Source: Branchiostoma lanceolatum (Eukaryota; Chordata; Leptocardii; Amphioxiformes; Branchiostomatidae). From it: a stretch of DNA of 64,000 bases. The notes beneath the pieces were generated by a model. It saw nothing but the letters and a program-made list of their open reading frames with translations, had not been told where the DNA came from and did no database searches. The stretch is taken from the NCBI RefSeq assembly GCF_035083965.1, contig NC_089722.1, positions 29,472,642 to 29,536,641 of the forward strand. Reading direction: 5' to 3'. Positions 19,201 to 59,400 of the stretch are shown piece after piece. Every line of letters begins with the position of its first letter. Positions within the stretch are counted from its first letter, which is position 1. Position numbers and translations under genes: made by a program.

Positions 19201-22200
19201 ACGTCTTGTCCTCTGCCTGTTTTTCCTTCTTCCTTTTGGACCTAGTCTTCACAGGCGACGGCTCAGCAAGTGACGTCTTCCCTCGCAACACTCTCAACAG
19301 AAACACACAGCCAGCTAAACAAGGAAAAAAACACATCAAAACATAAGGGACAAATCAAGTACTAGTACACAAATATTTATGAATACAAAATGACAACCAC
19401 AATGCCTCATAAAAGAAACATTAAAGAAAATATTTCCATTTCAAAAAGATAGGGAGGAAGGCAAAATTTTATGGCCCCTCCCTTTTTAACTGAAATCACT
19501 CTTTTAACATCATTTACTAGACTACCTTACCAATAACAAATATAATATGATATAGCCTGCTACATATTTTAATAGCATTTTAATTAAGTAGTAGTTTAAA
19601 GAATCTGTCATATCTGGTCAAATTCTTTTTCTTTCAATTATAGGACATTATCTCTCTCAAATAACAAAACTTTGCTTTTCTCACCTGACACTAGTGACAC
19701 CAGGTACACTGATGGAGCCATGTATGCCACCTGTACAATGTTACTCAACACTGCGTGCAGTCCTTCACTCTCAGGTTTCTCCAACACGGGGTAGTCCTTA
19801 ATCTTACACAGCTTGTTCCGGTAGAGACCCGCTACCTTCTCCGCAAGACTGTGTTCCTCGCTCTTCCGCAAGGAGTCTCGGACGATCCTCAGCAGAGGCT
19901 CCAGAAGTTCCAGCACGAGAGGGTTGGACGGCTGCTTACGGAGGAAGATGTCCAGGAGGTCGGTGACCCTCTGTTTAAAGTCCGTCATCAGTCGCTTGGC
20001 CTCCTTCTTGGTGGCTTTGGCGGACTTTTCATGAGTGCGGAAAATCTTGGAGAGGGATTCGTCGAGCTTCATCATGGTGGAGTCGCTGAGATCACTTTGA
20101 TCGCTGGCGGTGGAAGACGCATCATCATCGTCGTCATCATTTGGTGCGGCAGCTTTCCCAAGCGCCTCCTATTGGGGTGAGAAGGAAGTACATGTACATA
20201 GTGAAAATAAAGCTTACAAAAGGCCACTGATACTACCTCAGTCTTCAGGCATGCAGAAATGCATATCTGTAAATGCATTTAAGTTCGCGTGGTTTTTACT
20301 TCGCGGTAGAGGTAACATTAAGTTTTGGCAGTGTTTTAAGTTCACGTTTGAAACAATAGTGGCGCTACAGTCATAGGTGGGCAAAATGTTTTGCTGAGAT
20401 GTTCACCGCAAAAACCGCGAACACAAAACCACTGCGAACATTTCTGCATTTACAGTATCTTGTATGCAGTGCATCTTTTGTTTGCTAGATATCAGCAAGT
20501 ACAAATCAATGCATCAATGACATGATAACAACATTGATATTACTGTATAGAGTACAAACCTTAATCTTGGCTTTAAACTCTTCGTCAACATCATGAACCT
20601 CCTCTTCCCCCTCCTCCTCCTCCTCCTCATCATCATCACTGTCTGACTCATCTTCACTCCCCACGTCTCCGTTGGGCTTCAGCTCTTTCTTCTCTCCATC
20701 TCCTTCATCTTCTTCTTCATCCTCATCTTCATCAAAGTCCTAGATCATAGAATACATGCAAATCTTTTTGATTACATTGAGGAATGTAAGAATGCAAATA
20801 CAAAGATACAGTAGAAGCCACTTAATTGCACCTCGGATAAACGCACCTTCCGTTTAATTGCACCAAATCCCAAAATCCCAAACCAGTTCCCATTCACTGC
20901 ATTGTTAGTGACTCCGCATAACTGCACCGCGCATTGTCACCAATTTCGGATAACTGCACCAATTTTTTTCAAAAATCCTCGAAAAGTTAACTAAAAAGGT
21001 GCGCTAAAAATCGGCAAACGTGGTACAAATGAGCCGATACCTGCCGATGTAAAGGCGCAATACCGCCAATATGTTTAAAACTGTTTTTGAGTAACAAAAG
21101 AAGGCGGTCTCCATTGACAATCACGTTGATAGGAATCGTATGGGAGGTCCAGGGCGTGTCGGCACCATCAAGAGACGCACGCCTACCAAAGGCGGCATTG
21201 CGCTTTGGCAGACAGCATGCTGTACTCAATAAAGACTGGTCTCTACCTGTACTACTATCTTATTACTGTGAATGCATTCAAGTTCGCGTGGATTTGATTT
21301 CGCGTTAAGGATGGCATGGGGTGTTGTCGGTGGTTTGAGGTTTGCGGCAGCGCTACATACTGCTGCCGATAATAAAAGACCGGCGTCTTTACGTACATCT
21401 AGTCGGAAACAATAGAGGCTCGGCAAGGGCTACAGACGTGTAGGCGGACATAACAGTTGCTTTTGGCGGTGCGGTGCTAACGTGATCATCTGGCTGAATC
21501 CGCGTCCTAGAAACTTCCTGCATTCACCGGAACGAGGTGTACGCGGGTTAGGCTCTGATACTGTATAAGGAGAATGATCTGTCTTTGATCTGAGTCATCT
21601 AACCATATCTGCCCACTAGATACGCTGTACATTTTGTTCCTTATTTGGAATTTTGACGACGGAGTTTTTCAGTGTAATTCCTGACACAAGTTGTAATTAA
21701 GAAGGTAATCTCTGCCAAACATACCGCTATCTTAACTTAGAATTGTCAGACCTAAGTCACCAAAGTCATCATTTTTAGAAATACAGTACAGGCGGAGTTG
21801 TGTTTGTTCGATTAGATCGTCCTTGTGCTTTTACGCTATCGGCGCATTTTTATCCTTTGTTTGCGCATTCATCAACACAAGTGTGAAACTTTCGATGTAA
21901 TTTGTTGACCCAAGTTGTAGATACGGTGTCAAGTTTGTCTTAGTCATACCTACCGCCATTTAAACTAGCAAATTGTGAGACCAAAGTCATTATTCTAGAC
22001 ATAACGTTACAGTCGGAGTTGTTTACTTTGCTGTGCGAATCAAGCATATGTTTCTCTTTCTACACGTGTACAGTACCTAGCTTCACTGATTTAAACATCT
22101 GTGAGGAAGCAAAAGAAATATTAAGTTTAATCTGTACAGTATCATGGTAAACTTTACAAGATTTTTGTACAGTACATGTCTTTGAATACGTAAATAAAGT

Positions 22201-34900: not shown

Positions 34901-37900
34901 ACCTAACAACATCTTGTTTAGCTGAGGGCAGTGTGTTTTTGTCTTTTTCAGCTCAAATTCCACGATCTATGAAGGGTTTTGGTCTTTGGATGGTTTCTTT
35001 ATTTCAATTGAAGATTTACCGAATTTTATGAGAGTGACACTGTGTTTTTGTGAGCTTCCAGGGCTCCGATTGAAATCTTTGGCTCAAAATATAAGGTTGC
35101 ACACTGCACTACCTGGGTTTGGAATTAACTTGCACCAACCGAAATCTTGTTGCACTGTGCAACGTGCAACCAGGTATTTCGCACCCTGTAACTTAACATA
35201 GGATATTTTAATTTCTAAATATAGTGTGGTTATCAATGTCTCCATGGAGAAAGTATGTTGATCCCCATGGGCTTCACGAGGTTAGGCCAAACGTCACATC
35301 TGGCAGCCTTCCCACCAATGCTGTTTGTACTCGGATGGACTTTGAGTTAGTTCCTGTTCAGGACAGGAAGCCACAATATCAGACTTTATGTCATACCTGG
35401 GCCGTAATAACATTTGATACGGGTGTATTGGACTGGTCTGTATCCTACAGTATCACATGGGCTTCTACTTGTATCTCACGCGTTTCCAACTAATAATTTG
35501 AGCGCACTTTGTGTGTGGTGCTGTCGAAATTTTGAAATTGAAGAAAACACAGTCACTGCGAAACCTCCTTTTCCCTACTACCGCAAAATAAAAACACAGT
35601 GAAACTAAATGAATCTACAGGACATATATTAAGAATGAAACTAAGAAAATACATTTTATAGGTATACTTTTAATGACATGCAGCTCAGATAGGGTCCAAG
35701 TACAATACAAGGAAACTCTCAACATTTCTTTCAACAGTATTGGGCCAGAGTACCCCAAGAAAGTGAAAAACGATGTAACGATGGCGTTTTGTTCGTATTT
35801 CATACGGGGTAAACCACCTCATGGCGTAACACACCAGGTTTATACTAAAGAGTACAAGTTGCATATCTATACAGATTTATTTGATCCACTCACACGGGGA
35901 AGGACCCCTACTCCTTTCCAATAAGTGTAACTTGCTCCAGCTGTGGCTCTCCTCAAACAGGGGACTTATCCAAGGGACATCCCTAATCGAAGCTAGGTAT
36001 TCATTCTCACCTGTGTCAAGTGCCTTTCCCAGGGGCACAACATCAACAAGGCAAGACAGGAAATTTGAACCCAAGACCTTTGGGTTCTGGGCCAAGCACT
36101 CTGCCATTACACCACACTGACGCCACCTTTAATTTGTACTGTATATTATTATTGACAAACACATTGATGTGTCGATTCCCAGCTCTTCGAAGACCGCAAC
36201 CTGCGCGTAGACGTTGCAGAGTCTCGCCAAAAGGACAAAGACGGCGGTCGTGGCAGGGGAGGCCGTGGCGGCGGATTCGGCAGTAGCCGCGGCGGCGGTG
36301 GTCCCCCCAGGGGAGGGGGAGGGTATTCCTTCGGCGATCGCGGCGGCGGCGGCCAACAATATGGCGGATCAGGTGGGGATAGACGAGGTACTTTTGTAAA
36401 CATGTATTTTGTTTATTTATTTCATCCATCTTTAGGGTAGTCCTTTCAGTTAACTGAGTAACTGATTAACAAGGGAATTACTTCTTCCAAAGTCATAACA
36501 TATCAGGATACAAAACAAGGATAACATATAAATTGAATTTTTTGGAATAACCGTACATACCTGTGCATGTGCACTTTTGTGCACTCAAAATTGGAGCTGT
36601 GCACCTAATTTTTGTCTGTGGGTGCTCCTAGATTTCTTTAGGCAGTAAGGTTTGCAATTAGATTATGCTTGCACTCTACATTCTTTTATGTTTAAGGTTA
36701 CTAGTAGGTGTTTGACCACGTTGTGTTTTGACCCCCCCCGCCCCCAGATTACGGAAGAGATGGGGGGAGAGGCGGTTACGACGACAGGCCCGGTGGAATG
36801 GACCGCGGGCAGAGGTACGGCGGCGGCGGAGGGAATTTCCGCGGAGGCCGTGGCGGCGGAAGAGGCCCTGGAGACGATTTCAGAGAACCAACAGAAGGTG
36901 AATATTTCATTTTTATTTTTCTATCAATGTAAAATGAGCTATATTTCATGACCTGAGAATTCACTCACTGTCTTGAATTTTGTGGATATTTGGAGTTTTG
37001 AAAACGCATGGACACTGGATTGGTAGGCTGTAAAATAAAGTATCAGGAAAATGCAGTCAGAGAAAAAGAATTACATTTTTTCCTCTGCTTTATGATTCAA
37101 TAAGAAAGCAACGATATAAAGCTATAATAATCGTTGATAAAATGCATTTGTTGTTTGGGCCAAAAACTTGTTGGCCTCTTTTACTATACAGTCCAAAGTT
37201 TTCTAAAATGGATCAGTATACTCAACTTATTATAATTCACTGGTCATGAAACGTAGCTTTTCTGTTACAAATATTAATTTAAGAATGTGTTGTAGTTGTG
37301 TCAAAGTATATCTGACAGTGTACATTACACAATGTATTTCTTAATGCATTCATTCTTTCAAATTTCATACCTTGCTGTTTGTAGAATTTCTTTGTATCGT
37401 AGGAGGGTTTTCATGTTTTGAAGTTGAGATGAAAAAGAAGTCAAACTACACAAACTGCATGGTGTTTACGCCAAAAATAGTTACTCAAGCAACTGGATAA
37501 AATTTTGAAACAGTCAGACGTTTCAGACAGCATCTGCTGTCTTTCCTCAGAGACTAAAAAAGGTTTTGGAATAAAAACAAGGTTTTGGTATAAAACCTAG
37601 TTCTACCATATCCTTCTTTAAGTCACTGACGAAAGACGGCGGATGCTGTCTGAAACGTCTGGCTGTTTCAAAATTTTATCCAGTTGCTTGGGTAACTATT
37701 TTTGGCGTATCTTATTACCTGGATGTCTAACATTCATCAACGTGCATGATGTTTATTTTGACACAACTTCTTCACTTCTCTTTGAGGTGTTGTTTTGGAA
37801 AATTAAACCTTTTGCAGGTAAGCTAAGCTAAGGGATGCTGAGGTCAAAAACTATAAGTATCACTGTATGTGTTAACTATTGTAACCTAGTGCAAAGACCT

Positions 37901-44800: not shown

Positions 44801-47800
44801 CTTCGAAAATCGCCACAGTAAAGACGCATGGCAGTGATAGTCCGTGGGAAAGGCTCTCATGCATGGAAGAGCTCACCTCGAAGAAGGGGAAACAATTTTT
44901 TTGATCTATAAATAAAACCCATTTGCCTTAGTCAGAAATGTGCATGGTAATTTAACAAAAAGAATTTTATATAGTAAAGTCTAAACACAAAATTAGATTG
45001 CAATCTAGTCACCGTTATTATCACATAAAAATGCTTTAAAAAAGATCACTCCTCTACAGAAAGAATGCCGGAGCTTTCCAAGAAATTTGCGTGTAAGCCC
45101 CGCCCCTTACTGTGTTGGTGCCGCTACCATGACTACTGTCTGGCTCACCCTTTCAAAGGCCCTTTGATGTGTAACATGAGAACCCTGTGGTTTGTTGCCA
45201 ACAAACCTCCATGTTGCAACATTGTACAAGCCTGAGGCATCTAAATAACAAATTTGTTGACAATTTAGTCTCTCAAAATGAAAGTTTTTTTCTACATACA
45301 AGGGTAATTTTTGGATTTGAAATTGTTTGGATTGCAACAACACTGAACCAAGGACAATATACATGTATGATAATATCCTTAACATTATATAATAATGTGA
45401 TTTTGTTTTATATGCAATGCATAACACGATAAATGGCAAGTTCATCCTTTTCTATATGGCTTTTGCAAATAAGTAATACTTTCACTGAGCATATATTCAG
45501 GATATTGTAATTTCTGTTCAAGTTCTAGATGTTGATACATATATGAAAAAAGAGTAGACGTGTGAAAGAGTGAAGGTGTGAAGTGAACTGAGAAGTCTGG
45601 CGACTTAACTTGTGGTTGATGATGTCAATTTATACAATTTTCCTTGATCACTTGCTTTAAGTTCCAAGTAGAAAATGCATGTATCATGAACATTTTCACT
45701 TGTTGAATTTGAAGCACCGTTGGCCCCCGGTTAGGGGTCATAGCGGGGAACCTATGCCCAATTTTTGCAAAAAATTGTGGATACTATACATTAAAGTGTT
45801 ACAAAGAGTAGGGGTCCTTCCCAGTGTGAGTGGATCAAACCTTACAGTCTGGTCAGGGTTGACATCTTGAAACGTGATAGTCACCTGTTATGTCAATCTT
45901 TCCACAAATGTGGTAAATCTCAAAAAGTAAATCAGGCTTAAACGAATAAAAAGAACCTACCTGCTTATCATCTCCTTTCCCTAGGACAGAAGTAGCATAG
46001 ACACAGATTATGTGTCAATTTGGTCATTTTCCGGGGGGTATGTTTATTCCGGGGGGTACGTTTATTAGATTTTGAAGATTTGTCCGGGGGGTATGTTTAT
46101 TCCGGGGGGTATGTTTATTTGGGAGATGAGAGTAGGAGCGAGCTTTCTAGGAGGATTTGGGGACATTCCCCCTGGAAAATTGTGAAAATTCAACCTTCTG
46201 AAATGGCATTTCCTGAATTTTTAGCAGATTTTAAAGTAGATATTGAAGACTGTTGATAACAGCACTGTCAAGAGAGCATTGGTCATTCTTTTTGGGTACC
46301 TCTGAACCTACGAGAATGACATACTTTATCATTTTGTAACAAAATTGTTTTTCTGTTTATTTCTTATATTGTACTTTTCCATTTCAACATAAAATGCAGA
46401 TAATGAAATATTCTATTGTGAGAGCATACTGTAAATGCATTTAAATTTGCATGGTTTTTATTTTGCGCTATGGCAAAAATTTGAGCGTTTGCGGTGGTTT
46501 TGAGTCCGCAGCAGCGCTATAGTCACATACTGCTACAGTATTGGACACAAATGTTTGCGGTGGCTTTAAGTAAGTTCACAAGAACATTTCTGTATTTACA
46601 GTACTGCACGTACCTGTGTGTAGATTCCAGGGAACCAGTGAAACACAGAACATGCTGGAACTTCTGGTTCAGGAGGAGGTGCAGAACAACCAGGGGCTTG
46701 TCTGCTGCCGTACAGCTCACTGTGTATTCCTGCAAAATAACATTTCTACTGATTCATACAAACACTTGCAAAATTGTAGGAGGACAAGCTTTTGAACGGC
46801 AAATGTAGTAAACCTACATAGTACTAACAAACAACTTTCTATTTAAAACTAAATACAAATAAGCCTGGGTACCATGTTCCATAGTAACTGCTGGCTCAGT
46901 TTTTTGGCTTGCCAAAGCCCTCGTCACAAATAAGAAATTCAGCTCAGCCGACGTGTTGGCGAGCTTCAAATGTGCATTTCGGCCGAAGTATGGCCGACGT
47001 CCTGTAGATTACGCGGGCTTCGGGCGATTTTCAGAAATCAAAGTTGATCCAAATATTGGCCTTTTACCAGGTTAGTCGATTCTGACTTTGTCCATGTCCA
47101 AGAGATGGTACCATCTCATGGGGGATTTTTAGTTTTTAGTTCGATGGACGTCACCCGAGATTTTCCTTGGAAAATTTGGTCGACGCTCGGGCAATTTTGA
47201 CATTTAGCGAGCTACGGGCAATCTACAAATTCGGCAGACGCTCGCATGAATTGTGACGCCGGCTTAACCACATCCTCTTTTCAAAAAGATTGAGCTAGCG
47301 GTTAATACGGAGGATAGCACCCAGGCTAAATACAAATACATGTAGGCTGATAACTAAACACAATTTTAAATTTTCATGAAATCTACATCTGTAGTTGCAT
47401 CAGAAGAGATTAGATGTAACATGTCACAGAGTGATCAATGATAAGAGGACTTCTATGCTACCAATTACTACTTTTTTAATAATGCTTCAAGTGCTAACAG
47501 TCATCAACAATGTGACTGTGGGTCTTAAGACAATCACACATTTGCTTATTTTTCAATTTTGACATCTAAATGTTACCTGAAGTCCAGCAGGAGTGGTGAA
47601 TTTGCCCACAAATGTTCCCTTCTCCTGCGAGGCCCCAGCTGAGGCCGTCTCCTGTTTCCGCTGCTTGTGCCTGACTACAGAAGTGAAGAGTCTCGGGTGG
47701 AACAAGTTCAGCTGCTGCAGCTTCTCTGGGTTCTGAGACAGGGTGGCTGAGAAAAGCAGCTTCTGCAGCTAGAAAATACAAATAAATGCCAATACAGAAA

Positions 47801-50800
47801 TAACATTACTAACTTCTACATACATGTAGGTAAACTTCATGTAAACAGTATCTACCTAAAGAAGGATCATATCAACACCACAAATTTTCAAGCTCTATGT
47901 CATGATCGCAGTGCCTGGCGACAGCTGATCCACAACAGCATTTCAACATTTGAAACTGAAAGAGAAGGCAGCTGCCGAGGCAAAGAGAAGGGCCTGCAAG
48001 AAAGCCCGCCAACAAAAGAACTGACGGCACTACTAGACTCGCCCTAATCTATGGAGTGGCTGTCAACACATCTACCAAAACTGGAGACAGAAGATATAGA
48101 ATGATGTACAGCTGGTGAAGATTCTTACCGGTTGCTGCATCCTGGCAGCATTAGCAGCCGTCAGGGCCCCTGGCTCTGTCCTCCCTCCAAGTACACCTGC
48201 CCAGAGGATCATGGGAACACCAGGCTTCTCCTCTGACCCTTGACCTTCATACACGGCCCTGGTGACCTTGGCAAGCCAGTCCTGTTTGATGTGGTCCAGC
48301 ATCCTGTCTGCTTCATCTATCACCTGACAGAGGAAAAGAGAACACTTTTCTTGTAAGCTCTTACTAGTCTTAGATATATCTTAATTGCACAGATGTTCAA
48401 CATCAAAATGTTTAAAAGTTTGTCGTGGAAGACCACACAAGACATACATCAAAAAACTTGAAGCCGACAGCAGTATGAACGGTTTCAAGATTTTTCCCCC
48501 CCAGGACGATTCCCCCCCTGGGGGGGAAACGTCTTGGTGAAGACGATTCCCCCCCAGGTCGATTCCCCCCCAGTCGTTTCCCCCCCAGGTCGATTCCCCC
48601 CCAGTCGTTTCCCCCCCAGGTCGATTCCCCCCCAGTCGTTTCCCCCCCAGGTCGATTCCCCCCCAGTCGTTTCCCCCCCAGGTCGATTCCCCCCCAGTCG
48701 TTTCCCCCCCTGTCTAGCTGTAAACCAGGTTACGTTTACCAAATGACTACCACGTTAGATTCTAAATATACTAGATGCACAATTTATTTTCACATTATTC
48801 TATAAGTACTGTATAACGTTCTAAACTTTACGAGTTTAGCTGCATGCCGCTAAACTCCCCTGCGCTAGCGGGCAGCGCGGCGATTTCCAAGTCCTCACGT
48901 CCGTCATGACCAAGCCCACTGCGCCTGCCGTCACTCAGAAATGTCGGGCGATCCCAAATTATGATTGCCCTCAGTTATAGGATTAGAAATATATATAGAT
49001 TTAAATCATTGTTTAACAGACGTAACATTTTGGTGATTTCTATGCGTTTCCTAACTTAAAAAGGAGATTTAATGGAGCAGTAAACTTTGCTTATTCGTTC
49101 ACAAACCGGACCGGAATTGTATGCTGTTTGACTAGCTACGCACTAGTACATTAATTCCGACTGCCTCATCTTGATATATAAACAGTACTGTCAGAAATAG
49201 AATAAAAATGCTTACTAACAGATTACTATATGCTGAAAAATGACACAAAACTGCTAGCTATGCTGTTAGTTTCTAATCCTGTAAATCATTGTGACGTTCA
49301 TGGGACTACAGCGGGCGGAGTGGGCCTGGTCAGGCGCAGCGGGCGGACTTGACAATCGCCGGCGCCGGCTTGCACAGTCGGGTTATGATGGCGCGTAGCT
49401 CAGCACCTGCTCGAAAAGTATATATAACGTTATATATGATATAACAGTTACTGATTTTATCCAGCATAAAGGTGTGTGTATTCGGTGTATGTAGATGGTA
49501 CATTTTAGCAATCGTAGCAACTACCATTAGTCAGGTACATTTTGTACAGACAGGGGGGGAAACGACTGGGGGGGAATCGACCCGGGGGGGAAACGACTGG
49601 GGGGGAATCGACCTGGGGGGGAAACGATTGGGGGGGAATCGACCTGGGGGGGAAACGACTGGGGGGGAATCGACCTGGGGGGGAAATGTCTTCAACAGGG
49701 GGGGAAACGTCTAGGGGGGGAAACGTCCTGGGGGGGAAAAGACCTGATACCGACTTTCATACCTACACTAACTGTATGCCTGCAGCGATGGAAGACAGAG
49801 TTATGGAGACAACTAGTCATGGGAAGATTCCGAGCGAGCTTGACAGAAGACAAGACAAAAAAGACAAGAAAAGTACTTGTAAAATACAAAAGAAAAGCTG
49901 CACTGCATAAGTAGTAAGCAAAGTAGAGTCATCTAAATCTGACTTTTCCAAAGAACAGGAACAAACGTACCAGGTAGCGGAGGTGCCTGAGGTTGAAGCC
50001 TGCCGTCTTTTCAACATGGTCCACCAGTCGTCCAGGTGTGGCCACCACAATGTCTGCCAGACTCTGATACACACCGCGACTACAGGATAAACACACACCT
50101 CAACATTAGTGCAAGCACACAATGTACTCAATATCATGAATATTATAAGACTTTTTGAATGGTTTGAAAAACACACAACTACATAACACATCTACATAAC
50201 ATTATCATTGGTTAATAAATTATAATCTTAAGATACATTTCAAGCAAGTACTATGAAAGTGACACAAACTTCAACTATTGTATTGATTGTACCATTATCA
50301 TGTCAGTAATAAGATCTATGCATGACAAGTAATGTATATTCTTTCCTTTGCTAGATGAAACTTACAATACAACCATTTTTCTTCAAACAATATTATGTTT
50401 ACCTCTCTTTAACCAGTGCGTTTTTCTCAACAGCTAGACTCTTCTGTCCAGAACAGTTGGCCACTTTGAGTCTTGAGCCGCTGGTGTAGTGGTTGAAGAC
50501 TTTGTAAATCTGCACAGCCAGGTCTTTGGTTGGTAAGACAACCAATGCTCGAACTTCACACACCACTCTTTGTAACAAGGCCTAGGAGTAGAAAACATCA
50601 TTGTCAAAAACATTAGAGAGAGAGAAGCGTGATTGTAACCAGCATGATTAAAAAACATGGTTGCAAATTTTACTGAACTTCTTCTTTGTGGGTGTTTTGC
50701 TTGAATTTTAGTATGTTACATTAGCAACCTATATATACATATAGCCCCTAAATCTATATTGCAAAGTTACTAAGAAGCTAACAAAGTGGTATGTGTTTTA

Positions 50801-52780
50801 GACAAGTTTTGCATTCCAGCTTGTTTATGTTTTTTTCGTTTGTAGTGTTTCTAACATGTCTTGTTTACTAAACTATTGACCTCGTAAGATTTTCAACTTG
50901 AATTCAAGAGACATTGTCTTCATAAACTATAACGTATGACTACATAAGAAATGCGACAGTCACAGTTCAAAAGCTAGTTACTGACAAGAATGTACATACT
51001 TGGACTACAGGTATGACGAAGGCTAAGGTTTTGCCACTGCCGGTCGGTGCTGACACACAGATGTCACTCGGCCGGAAGCCTGCCCTCCCCATGATGGTCC
51101 CATCCTGCGCATCCTCCAGTATAGCTGGAATAACCTGGTGCTGCACTGGGAACAAATTCTCCACACCGTTTTCCTTCAATTTGTTTTTGAGAAATTCCCC
51201 AACATGGGGGGTGTCTTCAACAGGGACGAGATTTGATTGGATGTCATTCTCTATGACTGATGGGTCAGCCAGCCAATCAGGGAGCTTCCTGTGGACCTTA
51301 GCTGTCTTGTTTTTCTGCACTTCTCCAAGAACTTGGAAAGCTTCTTCCTGATCTCCCTGGTTCTTTTGCTTCTTGTTAGGGGTTTTATCATCTTTCTGCC
51401 TGTCTTGTGGCAACTCCTCAGATACCTGTTCAACAGAATCACTTTCCTGTTTGGAGTAATCCATATCCTCTGTGATGATAGCTTCTACATCATCCTCTGA
51501 TTCCTCTTCTACACTATTGTCAAACTTTGCTTTCTTATTTTGTTTGCTGATGGTTCCAGTATCAGCTTTGGTTGACTTTTCCTTACTCTTTGCCTTTTTA
51601 GCTCTACTTTTGTTCAACTTAGGTGTTTCATCTGTTTTATCAACTTTTTCAGATTTTATCTTTTTCTTCTTGACCACTGCGATGTCTTTAAAACTTGTTT
51701 GTGATAAGTTTACTTCCATACTAGCAATCTCTTCAATCTGCTTGGGCTTCTTCTTTCTCTTCTGTCCCTCTGCAGTTTTGGCCTTGCCTGATTTCTTTTT
51801 CTGTCCATTGACTGTTGTTGAATCATTTTTCATACCCATAGGTTCAGAACTGGGTGACTCATTTCCTTCAGCCATACTAGTTATCTTCTTACAATCCTTG
51901 TTTGGTTTCTTTGATGTAGACATCTCTATGGACTTTGGCACTGATGTTTTCTTTTTCCCTTTGCTCTTCTTTTTGCTTGAAACTTGGGAGTTTTCTTCTA
52001 ATTTTGACAACTCCTCAGTTTCATTGCTGTTCGTTTCTTTAGCTACTTTTCCATTTGGCTTGAATTTCTTTTTGCTTGGAGACGACTCCTGCACTTCTTG
52101 TTTCCTCTTTTTTAACTTCTGTGACACTATTCCATCATTTTTGTCAACAGGCATCACAGGAAGTTCTTCATTTGACACACTCTTTCTTCCTGCTTTCTTT
52201 ACATGTTCTTTCTTCATTTTCTTTTGTCCTTTGTGGGACACTTCTGCAGACTTATCCTTTGGTCTGTCTTTCTCAGCTAACATGTCTACAGTTGTGTGAG
52301 TTGAAGATTGTGGTGTCTCTGGGATATGTTGTTGGGACTTCATCTGACGTTCTTTGGCATCTCTGTGGAGTTTTGCCAGGATGTCATTGGCTGTTTGGTT
52401 GCCATGGAGACCTCTACTGCTATTGTAGGTGGCAACATCCTCCTCGTCACCAAGGTATCTATGAAATTGAAAAGAATATACAGCACAATGTAAATTGGTT
52501 TGTATATCATCATATTTGAAGATGTATACATCATCATACCCCTACAAAAAAATGTAACGTTATCCAAAAAAATTATGTCTTCTGTAGAATCAAATAGAGT
52601 GGAAACAAAGATATTTAGTTAATTGTTGCATTTAAAAGTTACCTTTTTGTATGTTGTTCAAGTAGTAAATATAAAATTACAACTTTGTACCCTTTCAACA
52701 ATCTTTACGTTTATTTGTTTCGCATTTAATCGAATCATCAAAATTACTCCCTCTCACCTGTTGACCGAAAATAGTGCCAT
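41806..52780 (-). CDS. DDX51: ATP-dependent RNA helicase DDX51 (Dbp6 family)
   Basis: Eleven exons in transcription order: 52780-52758, 52458-51000, 50581-50403, 50079-49971, 48323-48129, 47768-47577, 46729-46614, 44012-43896, 43611-43446, 42260-42126, 41826-41806. They total 2712 nt, or 903 aa, with all phases consistent. The start [15 protein letters not shown] matches the vertebrate MALFYVARYPG. Helicase motifs include APTGSGKT (about residue 478), [24 protein letters not shown] (about 593), FSATL (about 661), MARGMD and HRVGRTAR (about 830). Exon 2 carries about 350 residues of Lys/Glu/Ser-rich low-complexity sequence, which makes the protein about 235 residues longer than human. DDX51 is a nucleolar helicase needed for large-subunit rRNA maturation. 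Introns are full of mobile elements. Confidence 0.96.
42399..43136. mobile_element. Inverted-terminus element built from short repeats
   Basis: The ends GATAGAGTCAATTCCACATT and AATTGACTCTATC are inverted, with ACCGAGAGGGT / ACCCTCTCGGT just inside. The interior repeats a TTCCAACAT/TTCAAACAT-like unit dozens of times in both orientations with little else. No reading frame. It fills most of DDX51 intron 9. Confidence 0.7.
44172..46132. mobile_element. TA-flanked DNA element with long inverted ends
   Basis: The first 20 bases, CTCTCATCTCCCAAATAAAC, are matched exactly in inverse at the right end, with TA on both sides. Near the right end a GGGGGGTATGTTTATTCC unit repeats four times (46031-46120). 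The 1.96-kb interior includes a short fragment resembling the window's SINE body (about 45808-45850) but no transposase I can identify. It lies in DDX51 intron 7. Confidence 0.65.
46429..46601. mobile_element. CTGTAAATGCA-ended MITE
   Basis: Starts CTGTAAATGCATTTAAAT and ends TCTGTATTTACAG, with TA on both sides. Same family as 20267-20455. The right end lies 12 bp from DDX51 exon 7 and so sits beside its splice donor. Confidence 0.7.
46862..47327. mobile_element. Inverted-end element with 11-bp flanking repeats
   Basis: Starts AGCCTGGGTACCAT and ends ATAGCACCCAGGCT. AAATACAAATA flanks both sides (46851-46861, 47328-47338). Inner sequence repeats GCGAGCTTC- and GGGCGATTTT-like pieces. No coding capacity. 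It lies in DDX51 intron 6. Confidence 0.65.
47865..48024 (+). pseudogene. LINE ORF2 C-terminal fragment
   Basis: Reads [20 protein letters not shown] then [14 protein letters not shown]. After a one-base shift it reads [18 protein letters not shown] and a stop. A DRSxWR...basic tail is usual at the end of non-LTR retrotransposon ORF2. Frameshifted and 5' truncated, it lies in DDX51 intron 5. Confidence 0.6.
48481..49751. mobile_element. Foldback-like element with repeat-array arms
   Basis: The left arm (48481-48738) and right arm (49520-49751) are inverted to each other. Each is largely an array of a 31-bp unit made of GGTCGATTCCCCCCCA plus GTCGTTTCCCCCCCA (left-arm strand). The outermost parts (GGTTTCAAGATTTTT / inverse GGTATCAGGTCTTTT) and the inner edges (CCCCTGTCT) also match in inverse. 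The 0.8-kb centre is unique and has no recognised gene. Inverted termini made of internal direct repeats are the hallmark of foldback elements. It lies in DDX51 intron 4. Confidence 0.7.
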
Positions 52781-53400: not shown

Positions 53401-56400
53401 ATGTGGCAAAAAGGTCAACCTTCTGGCCATTTCAGCCTTACTACAGAAAGATCCGGACGATAAACAACCTGACGACATCATGTGGTCGAGACTAAGCGTC
53501 ATCTTGATTTTCTTATGCGGTTTTGTCGTCGCGTTTTTCATCACAACTATTCCTGGACCGCATTTTCTTTGGCTGACGTTTCGGAGGATCCCTCTTGTCG
53601 GTAGTTTGAACTTAGGCGAAGACGGAAGTTTCCAGTCTGTTGTGCCGACTTTACCCACAGAACACGGGAAGGCGAGAGCGGACTATCCACTCACACTACC
53701 CGCACAGCTGCAGTCTAAACCCACCCAGAAAACAGGTAGGAACTTTGTATATAACGAACGTTTGAAGGGGGGGGGGGTTAAGTGACAGCTGTCATAATTT
53801 CCACACCACGCCCATCTAGTTGTCTATCTTTCTTTTCCGCTACGTGTGACTTCGGGACGCAAGTAGATGTGCACATAAGGGATCAAGTCATTGAAGCAGG
53901 ACTAGACCCCAAGCTTAAGCGCAAGTTCCTAGAGAGAGGTGGAAACCTAGAGCTAACAACCATGTTAGACATAGCAAGGGCACACGAGTCTGTGGGAAGG
54001 CAACTGCTTGAAATGACTGGGCAAGTAAACGCACTGTCAGTTGGACAGGGTAAGAAAGACACTAGCAGAACAACCCAGAGGGGGCCCCACAGCACATTCC
54101 AAGGAAGGCCAAGAGACAGGCCTAGAGACGCCTGGACCACAAGGAAACCCGAGCCGAGGGCAGGGAAGAGCTGTTACAGCTGTGGCAGACAGGGTCATAT
54201 CTCCAAGGATACGGCCTGCCCGGCTAGAGGAAAAACATGCAGCCAGTGTGGGAAAATGAATCACTTCAAGGCAGTGTGTAGGGGCAAGAGAGGTCAGACA
54301 CAGAGGAAGTCAAACACAAACCAGGTGGAGCAGTCTGCAGATTATGTTTTCGGTGTACAGAAAGGAAGACAAGGGGACGGTACAGTAACCCTGAAGGTAG
54401 GAGGAGTGATCTTACAAGAGGTGTTGATCGACTCAGGGGCTACCTGTAATATCTTAAGCAAAGATACATGGGAGAGCATGAAGAACCAGCAAGTAAAAGT
54501 CTGGGACCAACATAAGAACTGTCGGAAACTCTATCCGTATGGAAGCAACACGGCACTACCAACGTTAGGCACGTTCACCACAAGCGTACTGTGTCCCAGC
54601 AACGGGGTCAGTACAGAAGGAGTCTTCGTCGTATTAGATGGCCCAGGGAGAGACCTGTTAGGGAAGAAGACGGCCGAGAAGCTGATGGTTCTGCAAGTTG
54701 GACCAATGCAGAAGGACCGGGTGAACAACTTACAAGAGGGCCTAACTCCAAACGAACGTAACAAGTACAAGGACGCATTTACAGGAGTAGGACTCCTAAA
54801 GGGACATGAAGTAACCCTGCACATCGACGAGACGGTGAGACCTGTTGCGCAATCACTGAGACGTGTCCCGTACGGACTGAGAGACAAGGTGGATGAGAAG
54901 CTGGACCAGTTATTGGAGCTAGACATCATCGAAGCCGTACCTGAAGAACCGACAGGTTGGGTTTCACCACTGGTGGTGGTACCGAAGGCAGACGGAGACA
55001 TTCGCATATGCGTGGATATGCGACGTGCAAATGAAGCCATCGTGCGGGAGAGACAGCCGATACCGACGGTAGAAGATATCCTGCACGACCTCAGCGGGAG
55101 TACAGTGTTTTCCAAGCTGGATTTGAAGTGGGGTTTCCATCAGGTGCCGTTAAAGGAGGAAAGCCGCCACATTACGACGTTCGTGACGCACCGAGGCCTG
55201 TATCGGTACAAGCGGCTGATGTTTGGGATCTCATCAGCTCCGGAGAAATACCAGCAATTGGTCAAAGAAGTACTCCGCGGATGTGAGGGAGTCAAGAACA
55301 TCGCAGACGACGTCATCGTCCACGGGAGAGGTGATGAAGAGCACGACAAGAGGCTACATCACGCGCTGGACAAGATACAGCAAGCCGGTTTAACGGTAAA
55401 CCCTGGCAAGTGCCTGTTCCGAGTGCCAAAGCTAACGTTCTTCGGACACGTAGTGACTCCAGACGGTGTCAATCCGAGCGAGGAGAAGATAGCAGCCATC
55501 AGAGAGGCAGAAGCACCAAAGACGGTCGGAGAAGTAAGATCGTTCTTAGGCTTAGTCCATTACGTGGCCAAGTTCATACCTAACCTCGCGACCATGACCG
55601 AGCCGTTGCAGAAGTTAACGCGCAAGGGAGTCGAGTTCAAGTGGAGCTCAGAGCAGCAGAAGAGTTTCGAGAAGCTGAAAGAGCTGATAACGAGTACGGA
55701 GACGTTGGCGTACTTCAGCCCCACAGGGAAGACGCGCATCGTAGCAGACGCGTCGCCTGTAGGATTGGGAGCTGTGCTGTTACAGCTGCAAGGCGAGAGA
55801 TGGCGAGTGATCGCATATGCATCTCGACAACTGTCGGAAGTCGAGCGACGGTACAGCCAAACAGAGAAAGAGGCCTTAGCACTTGTGTGGGCGTGCGAAC
55901 AGTTTCATCTGTATACGTTTGGCCGGGAGTTCGAGTTGGAGACGGATCACCGTCCACTGGAACACATATACGCAACTAAGTCGAAGCCATCATTTCGCGT
56001 GGAAAGGTGGGTGCTGAGACTACAGGCTTACCCATATAAAGTCGTTTATCGTCCCGGAAAGACCAACATCGCTGACGCGCTATCGCGGCTCAACAACAGC
56101 AAGTCAAGGGACAAGTCAAGTGAGAACTATGACTATGTCAGAAGCGTTGTGGAGGCGAGCACGCCAGTCAGTCTAACGCCACGCGAGATAGAACGGGCAT
56201 CGGGAGAAGACCCTGAGCTGAGACAGGTCAGGAGGTGTATCCAAACAGGACAGTGGGACGAATGTCAAGTGATGTCCTACCGTCATGTGAAGACAGAACT
56301 GAGCACATATGGGCAGCTCATACTACGCGGGACGAGAATCGTTATTCCGAAGGTTTTGAGGAAGACCGTCGTGCAGTTAGCGCACGAAGGGCACCAGGGC

Positions 56401-59400
56401 ATCCAGAAAACGAAGAACCGACTGAGGACCAAAGTTTGGTGGCCCAAAATGGAAGCAGATGCAGAGGCAGTGTGCAAACGCTGTCACGGGTGCCAGGTAG
56501 TCAGCGAACAGACACCGCCAGAACCAATGGCACGAGTAATGCCGCCAACAGGCGCATGGCAAGCCTGTGGAGCAGATCTGTTGGGACCGCTACCAACGGG
56601 GGAGACTATCTTAGTCGTCGTGGATTACTACAGTCGCTTTTACGAGATTGCCATCATGAAGTCAACGTCAAGCCGAAAGGTCATCGAAGCATTGGAGGTT
56701 ATCTTCGCAAGATTTGGAAATCCATGCTCTCTACGTACTGACAACGGTCCACAGTTCGTTAGCGCAGAGTTCGCCGAGTTTCTACGAGAGCAGGGGATAC
56801 AGCATCAACGAACAACGCCGCTGTGGCCGCAAGCCAACGGCGAAGTCGAGAGACAGAACCGTACACTGATGAAGGCGATCAAAGTGTCGAGAGTGGAAGG
56901 GAAAGACTGGAGGCGAGAGATTCTTAAACATATCCAAGCCTACAGGTCCACTCCGCAAGCAACTACGGGAGAAACTCCATACAAGCTGATGTTTGGGAGA
57001 GAGATGAGATCTAAACTGCCAGAATTGCCAAGAGAACCAAAGCTGGTAAACGAAGAAGTGCGAGACCGAGACTTTGAGAGGAAAACCGCAGGGAAGGACT
57101 ACGCTGATGCGAAAAGACAAGCGAAGGAAAGTACTCTACAGCCGGGCGATCGTGTGTTGGTGAAGCAGGAGAAGAGAGACAAATTCTCCACGCAATACGA
57201 AGCAACTCCATATGAAGTGATCGAACGAGACAGAGGGGAAGTCACAGTTCGAGACCCGGACGGGAAAGTGAAAAAGAGAAACGTTTCCTTTATGAAGAAA
57301 TACGTAGCGGAAGAGGCAGCGACAACGACAACGGGTGAAGAAACAACCTGTGAAGAAACTACGTGTGAGGGAACTTCGACAACACCAGACAAGGAAGCAG
57401 AGACTGAAACAAAGACAGGCAGTTACGTAACGCGATCGGGGCGAGTTGTAAAACCACCCGAGAGACTGAACTTATAATGAGTAGAAGGAACGAAATAAAC
57501 TCCACGATCCAGGAAAAGAATACGGACAATGAATACGGAAATGGACTGTCTAGTATAAAGCTTAAGTTTGAAGCATAGTTGATAATGCATGGAATTAACA
57601 AGTAGCAGTAATTGAGTAATGCATGGGTTTGATAGTTTATATACCTTGTATAATGCATGTCTGAGGAAAGGAGGGATGTAGTGATGTGAAACATGTGATA
57701 CTTTATATTGGCCACTCTAATCCTAGTAACTCTACACCGGATGCAGTCAAACCCTCCTACCAGATGTAGACGCAGTTGGCAACAGAATACACTAGTGAGC
57801 AGACGTGCTTGTGTGTGTGTGCTCCTTGGGAAGCTTACATCGGTAGTTCTGTTTTCTGACGATGTGTCCTTTAGTGTGAATTTGTGGTGTGGTCAACTTA
57901 AGAAAATCTGCTTTATCTATCATGTATTATGCATGATATGATGATATCATAGATTATAAAGATAATTACAACTTTTATCTTGTGTAAACTTACCTCAAGG
58001 TTCTCAAGAAATTTAAGGTATCCTATGCAAGTCTGAAATCTTTTTTGACTCGTACAGCATATTGTCAAATTTTCCAAATTATATTATTTACGTAACATAT
58101 GTTGCAGTGTTTACAGCTGACATATGTTCTTGGCTTGTATAGACTGAACTGAAAGAGACCAAGACTGCCTTGTGCTGATGATGAATATGCCATTGGAAAA
58201 ATAAGGCTTTTGAACCAAAGATGTGAAAAGTCTAATAGTATACCATTTTTCCATTTCACTGTTTAAGATCACAGTGGAGAAGTGGCCGCATCACTCCACC
58301 TAGCGAAGGAGATGAGACTGCATGGGAAGCGGGACAAGGCCACCAAGCTGTACCAACATGCGCTGGCTCTGGAGCCGCACAACGTGGAGGTACTGACGGA
58401 GTACGGGGAGTTTCTAGAAGAGGAGCACAACTACATGGAAGCAGACCACATGTACACTAAAGCCCTTACAGTGCACCCTGGACACACACAGGTAATGTAG
58501 CCAGGCTCCATTACAACTTTTACTAAGCTTTATAGTGGCCTCAGTTTACTTCTAGCAATGAAATGATACATTAAGGCTAGTACTATATTAGTCATGCCAA
58601 TAAACAGTTACTAGTAGTCAAACAGCTGGATCAAATTTTCGAACAGTCAGACGTTTCAGACAGCATCCGCTGTCTTTCATCAGTGACTAAAGGGAAGAAA
58701 CATTTGACTGTTTCAAAATTTCATCCAGTTGCTTGAGTAAGGTTTTTTTGGCATATTTTTTACCTAGATGTCTAACCTTTATCAATGTACTAGTCAGTTG
58801 TCAAAATCATAAGCAGTTTTTTGTTGTTTATAGGTTAATCTTAATGTGCAAAAATCAGTGTAGAATAGTGGATTTAATAGACATCTAGTCTCAAATAAAT
58901 GAGTGTTTTATAAACTGTATGCTTTTCTTTTTTGAGTGCAGGCTCTAACCAATCGCCTGCGTACACTGCCCCAAGTCATGGAATACGAGAGACGATATTT
59001 CACAGCCATCGACAAGAAGAGGGACCTTCTCATCCAAGTCCCCCTCAACAACGCCGCTCTCCGACGCATCAAACAGGAGTCTTACTACTTCTACATCTAC
59101 CACACCAATGCCATCGAGGGAAACACTCTGTCCCTCGGGCAGACTAGGGCCATTCTTGAAACAAGGATGGCGGTTGGTGGAAAGAGCATCGTGGAGCACA
59201 ACGAGGTCATTGGTATGGACGAAGCCATGAAATACATCAACAACACCCTGATGGACCGGATCGGCGCGATCAGGATAGAGGACATCATGGAGATCCATCG
59301 GCGAGTGTTGGGACACTGTAGTCCGCTGGACGCGGGGCATTACCGTAGGACGCAGGTGTACGTTGGCAGACACATCCCACCGCATCCTATCGAAGTAGAG

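Follow-up and report, generated by a model that had tools for sequence, protein, structure and literature searches.

A foldback-like imperfect palindrome with arrays of G7 boxes in an intron of an amphioxus DEAD-box helicase gene

The stretch of the Branchiostoma lanceolatum genome analysed here, referred to as the window, is 64,000 nucleotides in length and includes a DEAD-box helicase gene on its minus strand. One intron of this gene extends from a GT at 49970 to an AG at 48324, and its removal joins RYL to VIDEADRM in frame. The peptide encoded by the joined exons matches the Pfam DEAD family (E 9.6e-12), its best match among the chains of solved structures being DDX47 (E 2e-13); the N-terminal exon of the helicase, searched against the same solved structures, matched nothing at E 0.001. 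The host gene may be DDX51, a putative assignment by likeness to the human sequence; this name and the designation 'intron 4' both come from the original prediction. The greater part of this intron is occupied by the element described below (Table 1). Subtraction of the element leaves an intron of 357 bp that retains its splice borders, and both of the tandem arrays carried by the element are more than 200 bp from the intron borders.

Table 1. Positions of the element, its component domains and its host intron in the window
Feature	Position	Strand	Basis
Host intron of the DEAD-box helicase gene, 1647 bp (1290 bp being the element)	48324..49970	-	GT/AG borders, in-frame junction
Whole element, imperfect palindrome GTATGAA...TTCATAC	48473..49762	.	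Gapped half-versus-half alignment; inverted match of 11 bp at most in the flanks
Left flanking domain: terminal repeat and irregular boxes	48473..48546	+	75 of 83 columns agree with the right arm
Left array: 11 C7 runs in 31-bp dimers (AGGTCGATT-C7-AGTCGTTT-C7)	48547..48710	+	
Inner domain of the left arm, a diverged inverted repeat (strongest block 48812-48931; inner boundary approximate)	48711..49080	+	blastn and shuffles
Short middle segment, the remainder between the inner domains; edges set by the authors, approximate	49081..49149	.	
Inner domain of the right arm (strongest block 49308-49434; inner boundary approximate)	49150..49552	-	
Right array: 9 runs of G7, shorter than the left array by a 31-bp dimer	49553..49685	-	
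Right flanking domain	49686..49762	-	Arm-to-arm alignment, as for the left flanking domain
Inverted box	48520..48534	+	Counterpart at 49698-49712; no other box of the left arm has a G run on the plus strand
TA, the left copy in a putative target duplication	48474..48475	.	Right copy at 49760-49761; weak
Hairpin across the left end	48450..48496	+	Stem of 17 bp with 14 paired, loop of 13

The region between 48000 and 50300 was inspected letter by letter, and the left half of the element was aligned, with gaps, to the right half in reverse complement. The resulting match runs from the outer ends (48473, partnered by 49762) through to the centre, with many gaps in its inner part, such that the full 1290 bp constitute one imperfect palindrome beginning GTATGAA and ending TTCATAC. 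Beyond these ends, the longest inverted match in the 300-bp flanks is 11 bp. The bounds originally proposed, 48481..49751, do enclose inverted structure, but fall short of its outer edges on both sides.

Between the arrays, the original prediction envisaged a unique centre of 0.8 kb, which is incorrect. When the left half of 48711-49552 is aligned to its right half in reverse complement, the score is 139; 300 dinucleotide shuffles have a mean of 38.2 (sd 6.2) and a maximum of 65, and 144 other blocks of the window, compared in this inverted manner, have a mean of 41 and a maximum of 82. Furthermore, the left half of the centre scores no more than 56 against 146 other blocks of the window, and the two halves compared in forward orientation reach 68, which is above the control means but far under 139. 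The best conserved part is also detected by blastn, which pairs 48812-48931 with 49308-49434 on the minus strand at 69% over 130 columns (E 9e-12). Two local alignments of these inner domains end differently, at 49055/49190 and at 49081/49142. No stop-to-stop frame of at least 120 aa is present within the centre. The element is therefore a single imperfect palindrome made up of flanking, array, inner and middle parts: its long inverted arms consist partly of direct tandem repeats, and their non-tandem inner domains surround a middle segment.

The two arrays that were described at the outset are readily recovered by TRF, which reports 5.3 copies of the 31-bp unit at 48547-48710 (100% matches, score 328) and 4.3 copies at 49553-49686 (97% matches, score 254), the arms being complementary at 97% across 145 nt. 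The period of 31 bp, with two runs of seven, is thus upheld; it is not the basic unit, however, but a dimer of two variants of a 15/16-bp box, GGGGGGGAAWCGWC, which contains a single G7 run and reads G7-AAWCGWC on the G strand. The starts of successive runs within the arrays are alternately 15 and 16 bp apart. Each of the 26 runs of C or G of at least 5 in the element has a length of exactly 7; there is one extra run of 4, whereas runs of at least 4 in the rest of the window vary in length from 4 to 18. The box is found in 22 exact copies in the element, and in 26 when up to two mismatches are allowed, since the four runs outside exact boxes fit it with 1, 1, 1 and 2 mismatches; all boxes are oriented outwards except for one that is flipped.

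Nowhere else in the 64-kb window does the box occur with one mismatch or fewer. Eight box-like matches lie outside the element (one with 2 mismatches and seven with 3), and shuffles of the window contain a mean of 6.6 matches at up to three mismatches. The pattern C7-N4-CGNTT-C7, searched across the whole window with up to two mismatches, has 21 matches, every one of them inside the element, and none in 100 shuffles. Another G-rich tandem array is located about 2.4 kb away, at 46029-46119, with the unit TTCCGGGGGGTATGTTTA in 5.1 copies at 66% matches and G6 occurring four times; its unit differs from that of the element.

The two arms are not identical. The left array is longer by one 31-bp dimer (11 runs rather than 9), there is a 3-bp indel in the terminal bases, and the sequence GGGGGGGAAACGTCT of the left flanking domain is replaced, at the matching place of the right arm in the same reading direction, by its exact reverse complement. 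This 15-bp inversion of a box is perfect, and gives rise to a C7-T-G7 sequence on the left. Once the inverted box is flipped and a 3-bp gap is admitted, 48473-48555 and the reverse complement of 49677-49762 agree in 75 of 83 columns. These differences bear on the concern, raised with the original prediction, that reads of one array had been joined in two orientations during assembly. None of the observations directly favours such a joining. Palindromes and G7 arrays are in general hard to assemble, and the numbers of units may be wrong; yet the arms differ by unit number, by the inversion, by point changes and by a strongly diverged inner domain, and so do not represent a simple mirroring of one stretch, while the intron borders on either side join in frame. 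The concern is largely answered by these features, and an artefact of this type appears extremely improbable.

In the flanking domains, differences between the arms affect none of the 28 columns within runs but 8 of the 55 columns within spacers (Fisher p = 0.047); an earlier and narrower version of the comparison (0 of 21 against 6 of 49) was not significant (p = 0.17), and both use an alignment that is anchored on the runs. There is thus a hint that the G7 runs are maintained through use, or are otherwise under constraint. Recent amplification, without selection, can explain why the arrays have diverged so little. As the arrays are 97% complementary and the best inner block 69%, the data suggest that renewal or equalisation of the arrays came later; alternatively, the same unit may have expanded recently and independently in each arm.

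At the outer ends, the only direct duplication that fits the edges of the inverted repeat is TA, which lies inside the palindromic match and so perhaps occurs by chance. The same may be true of its position flanking TGAA...TTCA, which would be that of a target duplication of the Tc1/mariner type. No target duplication of 8-10 bp, as made by Tetris and Tm1, borders the inverted repeat. The longer candidates that come closest are matches that overlap one another and have 2 mismatches in 10-11 positions (for instance 48459-48468 with 49745-49754), the right copies of which are inside the palindrome, and a 9-10-bp duplication, TGAAGCCGAC and TGATACCGAC (8 of 10 positions), was rejected on the grounds that it would cut the terminal repeat. 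The end regions have four 5-mers in common (five in a slightly wider listing), where 500 shuffles average 3.57, and their longest exact match, of 5, is reached by 96% of shuffles. Hence the likeness to foldback elements originally proposed holds for the anatomy, and is stronger than was first claimed because the centre is palindromic too, but does not extend to the 8-10-bp duplication of Tetris and Tm1; as this was not found, and as the centre offers no frame of 120 aa for comparison with a Mutator or P transposase, no named superfamily is claimed and the element is termed foldback-type by its anatomy.

A hairpin can also be drawn across the left end (Table 1), which places the terminal repeat, as an inverted copy, directly outside the palindrome. 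Its level of pairing, 14 of 17, was reached by none of 300 shuffles and by one of 312 other 81-bp stretches, and just 11 of 17 positions are paired at the right end.

A blastn comparison of the element with the rest of the 64-kb window found no second copy, with nothing better than E 0.24. The match with this value joins the right arm to 51202-51225, a part of a helicase exon close to a run of six, over 28 columns at 82%, and is taken for chance. Viral, phage, plasmid and genome-contig collections were also searched; they are without animal genomes and so are uninformative on the existence of a family. Neither the exact unit nor C7-N4-CGNTT-C7 occurs in the viral contigs, and the element has no match among phages and plasmids at E 1e-5. 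The pattern is found in 20 of the genome contigs, once in each and never in an array, with half of these matches (10 of 20) no more than 300 bases from the end of the stored locus; they are read as chance occurrences or edge runs.

The window contains other repetitive sequence. A short palindromic, MITE-like repeat (37467-37709 and 58615-58788) has 93-nt arms that are 92% complementary, with the related sequence 21 kb away. A 37-bp repeat is dispersed in four copies, at 20265 (ATCTGTAAATGCATTTAAGTTCGCGTGG), 21264, 46427 and 59974. On the plus strand, a stop-to-stop frame of 1231 aa at 53782-57477 has reverse transcriptase, RNase H and integrase domains; no long direct repeat flanking it was found among the 20 of 22 direct-repeat families that were listed.

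Taken together, these observations are probably best accounted for by the insertion of a non-autonomous foldback-type DNA transposon, which has been tolerated in the helicase intron. In favour of transposition are the full-length inverted repeat and its sharp ends, from which no inverted match continues into the flanks, together with the domain plan known from Tetris, the uniform length of the runs, the outward orientation of the boxes and the intact 357-bp intron that would remain without the element; against it are the absence of a second copy from the window and of a target duplication beyond TA. The latter observations would equally be expected were the structure a palindrome of this single locus that has never moved, having arisen by local inverted duplication together with expansion of a G-rich minisatellite. 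The nearby G6 array at 46029-46119 and the precedent of minisatellite-like arrays in amphioxus genes, as described in excerpts of PMC3087553, point in the same direction. However, such an origin does not predict the common terminal order of the arms, the sharp outer ends or the arrangement of flanking, array and inner domains, and the array at 46029 has another unit. This explanation is accordingly considered unlikely, if still worth entertaining.

The long hairpin originally suggested for the intron RNA is supported by folding. The predicted pre-mRNA structure comprises 210 pairs over a span of more than 600 nt, with a minimum free energy of -715.9 kcal/mol; the corresponding value for 40 shuffles is -410.8 (sd 9.8), which gives a z score of -31. 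The inner domain alone is predicted to fold at -253.5 against -212.9 (sd 7.8, 60 shuffles). The predicted hairpin may in turn influence splicing. It might be supposed that the element has been retained by the host for its RNA, the intron hairpin acting in splicing or feeding small RNAs, and the strength of the predicted fold is what this would entail. Nevertheless, such a fold is expected of any long inverted repeat, the divergence and many insertions and deletions of the inner arms do not suggest that pairing has been selected, and no Rfam family matches at its gathering score anywhere in the window. A retained role of this kind therefore seems very improbable.

With regard to quadruplexes, the G strands contain no motifs with loops of 1-7 nt. 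If loops of up to 12 are permitted, there are four non-overlapping motifs on the left and three on the right, with a G4Hunter maximum of 2.2; by motif the potential is moderate, and formation is possible. A relaxed Rfam search of 48400-49850 (1451 bases) returned 15 matches, 14 of which have E values of at least 0.38. The other is a subthreshold full-length match to RAGATH-23 at 48437-48534 on the plus strand (E 2.5e-5; 37.3 bits, the cut-off being 92.6), which we judge to be probably due to chance, its two stems being the left-end hairpin and the C7-T-G7 palindrome. No tRNA was found in 48400-49850.

If the element is indeed a foldback-type insertion, the outward-facing G7-AAWCGWC boxes may be repeated binding sites for a transposase, by analogy with Galileo, that would be supplied by an autonomous relative elsewhere. 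The presence of several sites at each end could improve recognition of the ends, and the element would be cut out and pasted, perhaps at TA. Its arrays would gain or lose 31-bp dimers, and strand switching on folded-back DNA could have flipped one box. In its current position the element would be transcribed with the intron and then spliced out along with it. A more elaborate proposal, which is distinctly doubtful, is that the ends of an undescribed foldback family are recognised through the G7 boxes as a structure, either a quadruplex or an extruded hairpin, and not only as duplex; the length of seven would then be kept as the object that is recognised, with strand switching both equalising the arrays and flipping boxes.

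Should other copies prove to have these ends, they would provide a natural test of why foldback elements bear tandem arrays: the numbers of boxes may vary between copies, and an invariant run of seven would constitute a precise hypothesis for the binding site. The inversion of a 15-bp box between homologous arms would preserve the trace of a strand switch, resolved to the base. If instead there is a single copy, the locus represents a well-preserved, long palindrome tolerated by a gene within its intron.

Searches of the open-licence part of PubMed Central, outside the scope of which are Repbase and most subscription papers, returned no paper for foldback, amphioxus and transposable element in combination. 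The excerpts of PMC5802833 contain neither 'foldback' nor 'minisatellite'. The same open-licence literature yielded no paper on foldback elements in Branchiostoma, on foldback elements with G-quadruplexes, transposons and terminal inverted repeats, on the 31-bp repeats of foldback elements, or on the TU elements of sea urchins.

The TU elements of sea urchins and the FB elements of Drosophila have inverted arms with short tandem repeats in their outer parts, of 15 bp in TU and of up to 31 bp in FB; TU also has an inner domain, and both families make target duplications of 8-9 bp. The present element resembles them in this arrangement of its arms, and differs in its ends, where no duplication of that size was found. 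More locally, the 'Mirage' minisatellites of amphioxus are, according to excerpts of PMC3087553, tandem arrays within genes that are unstable in number and duplicate an exon-intron boundary. Tandem arrays within a gene are common to both cases; in the present element, by contrast, they are over 200 bp inside the intron and no exon-intron boundary is duplicated, and inverted pairs are not described in the excerpted text on Mirage.

Among well-characterised transposons, Galileo, a member of the P superfamily in Drosophila, has long, internally repetitive TIRs, the repeats of which contain transposase binding sites (PMC3688188, in excerpt). The arms of the present element are similarly long and internally repetitive, although a target duplication matching that of Galileo was not found at its ends and the likeness is one of anatomy. 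The composite TIRs of Tm1, a Mutator/Foldback element of Meloidogyne, contain a variable number of 13-15-bp tandem motifs, unequal between the two ends (excerpts of PMC3169594). Short tandem motifs in unequal number are also what is observed here, but Tm1 has 9-bp target duplications and the motif CGATTCAGTATCCGC, without G7 runs, in the excerpted account. The foldback transposon Tetris of Drosophila virilis, as far as the excerpts of PMC4079207 describe it, is non-coding, and has long TIRs in which a flanking domain on the outside is followed by tandem repeats and then by an inner domain, with a middle segment between the two TIRs. Its repeats of about 220 bp and target duplications of 8-10 bp set it apart from the present element, with its 15/16-bp G7 boxes, single known copy and lack of any such duplication at the ends; nevertheless, the plan of flanking, tandem, inner and middle parts is the same in both, as is the lack of coding capacity (excerpts of PMC4079207).
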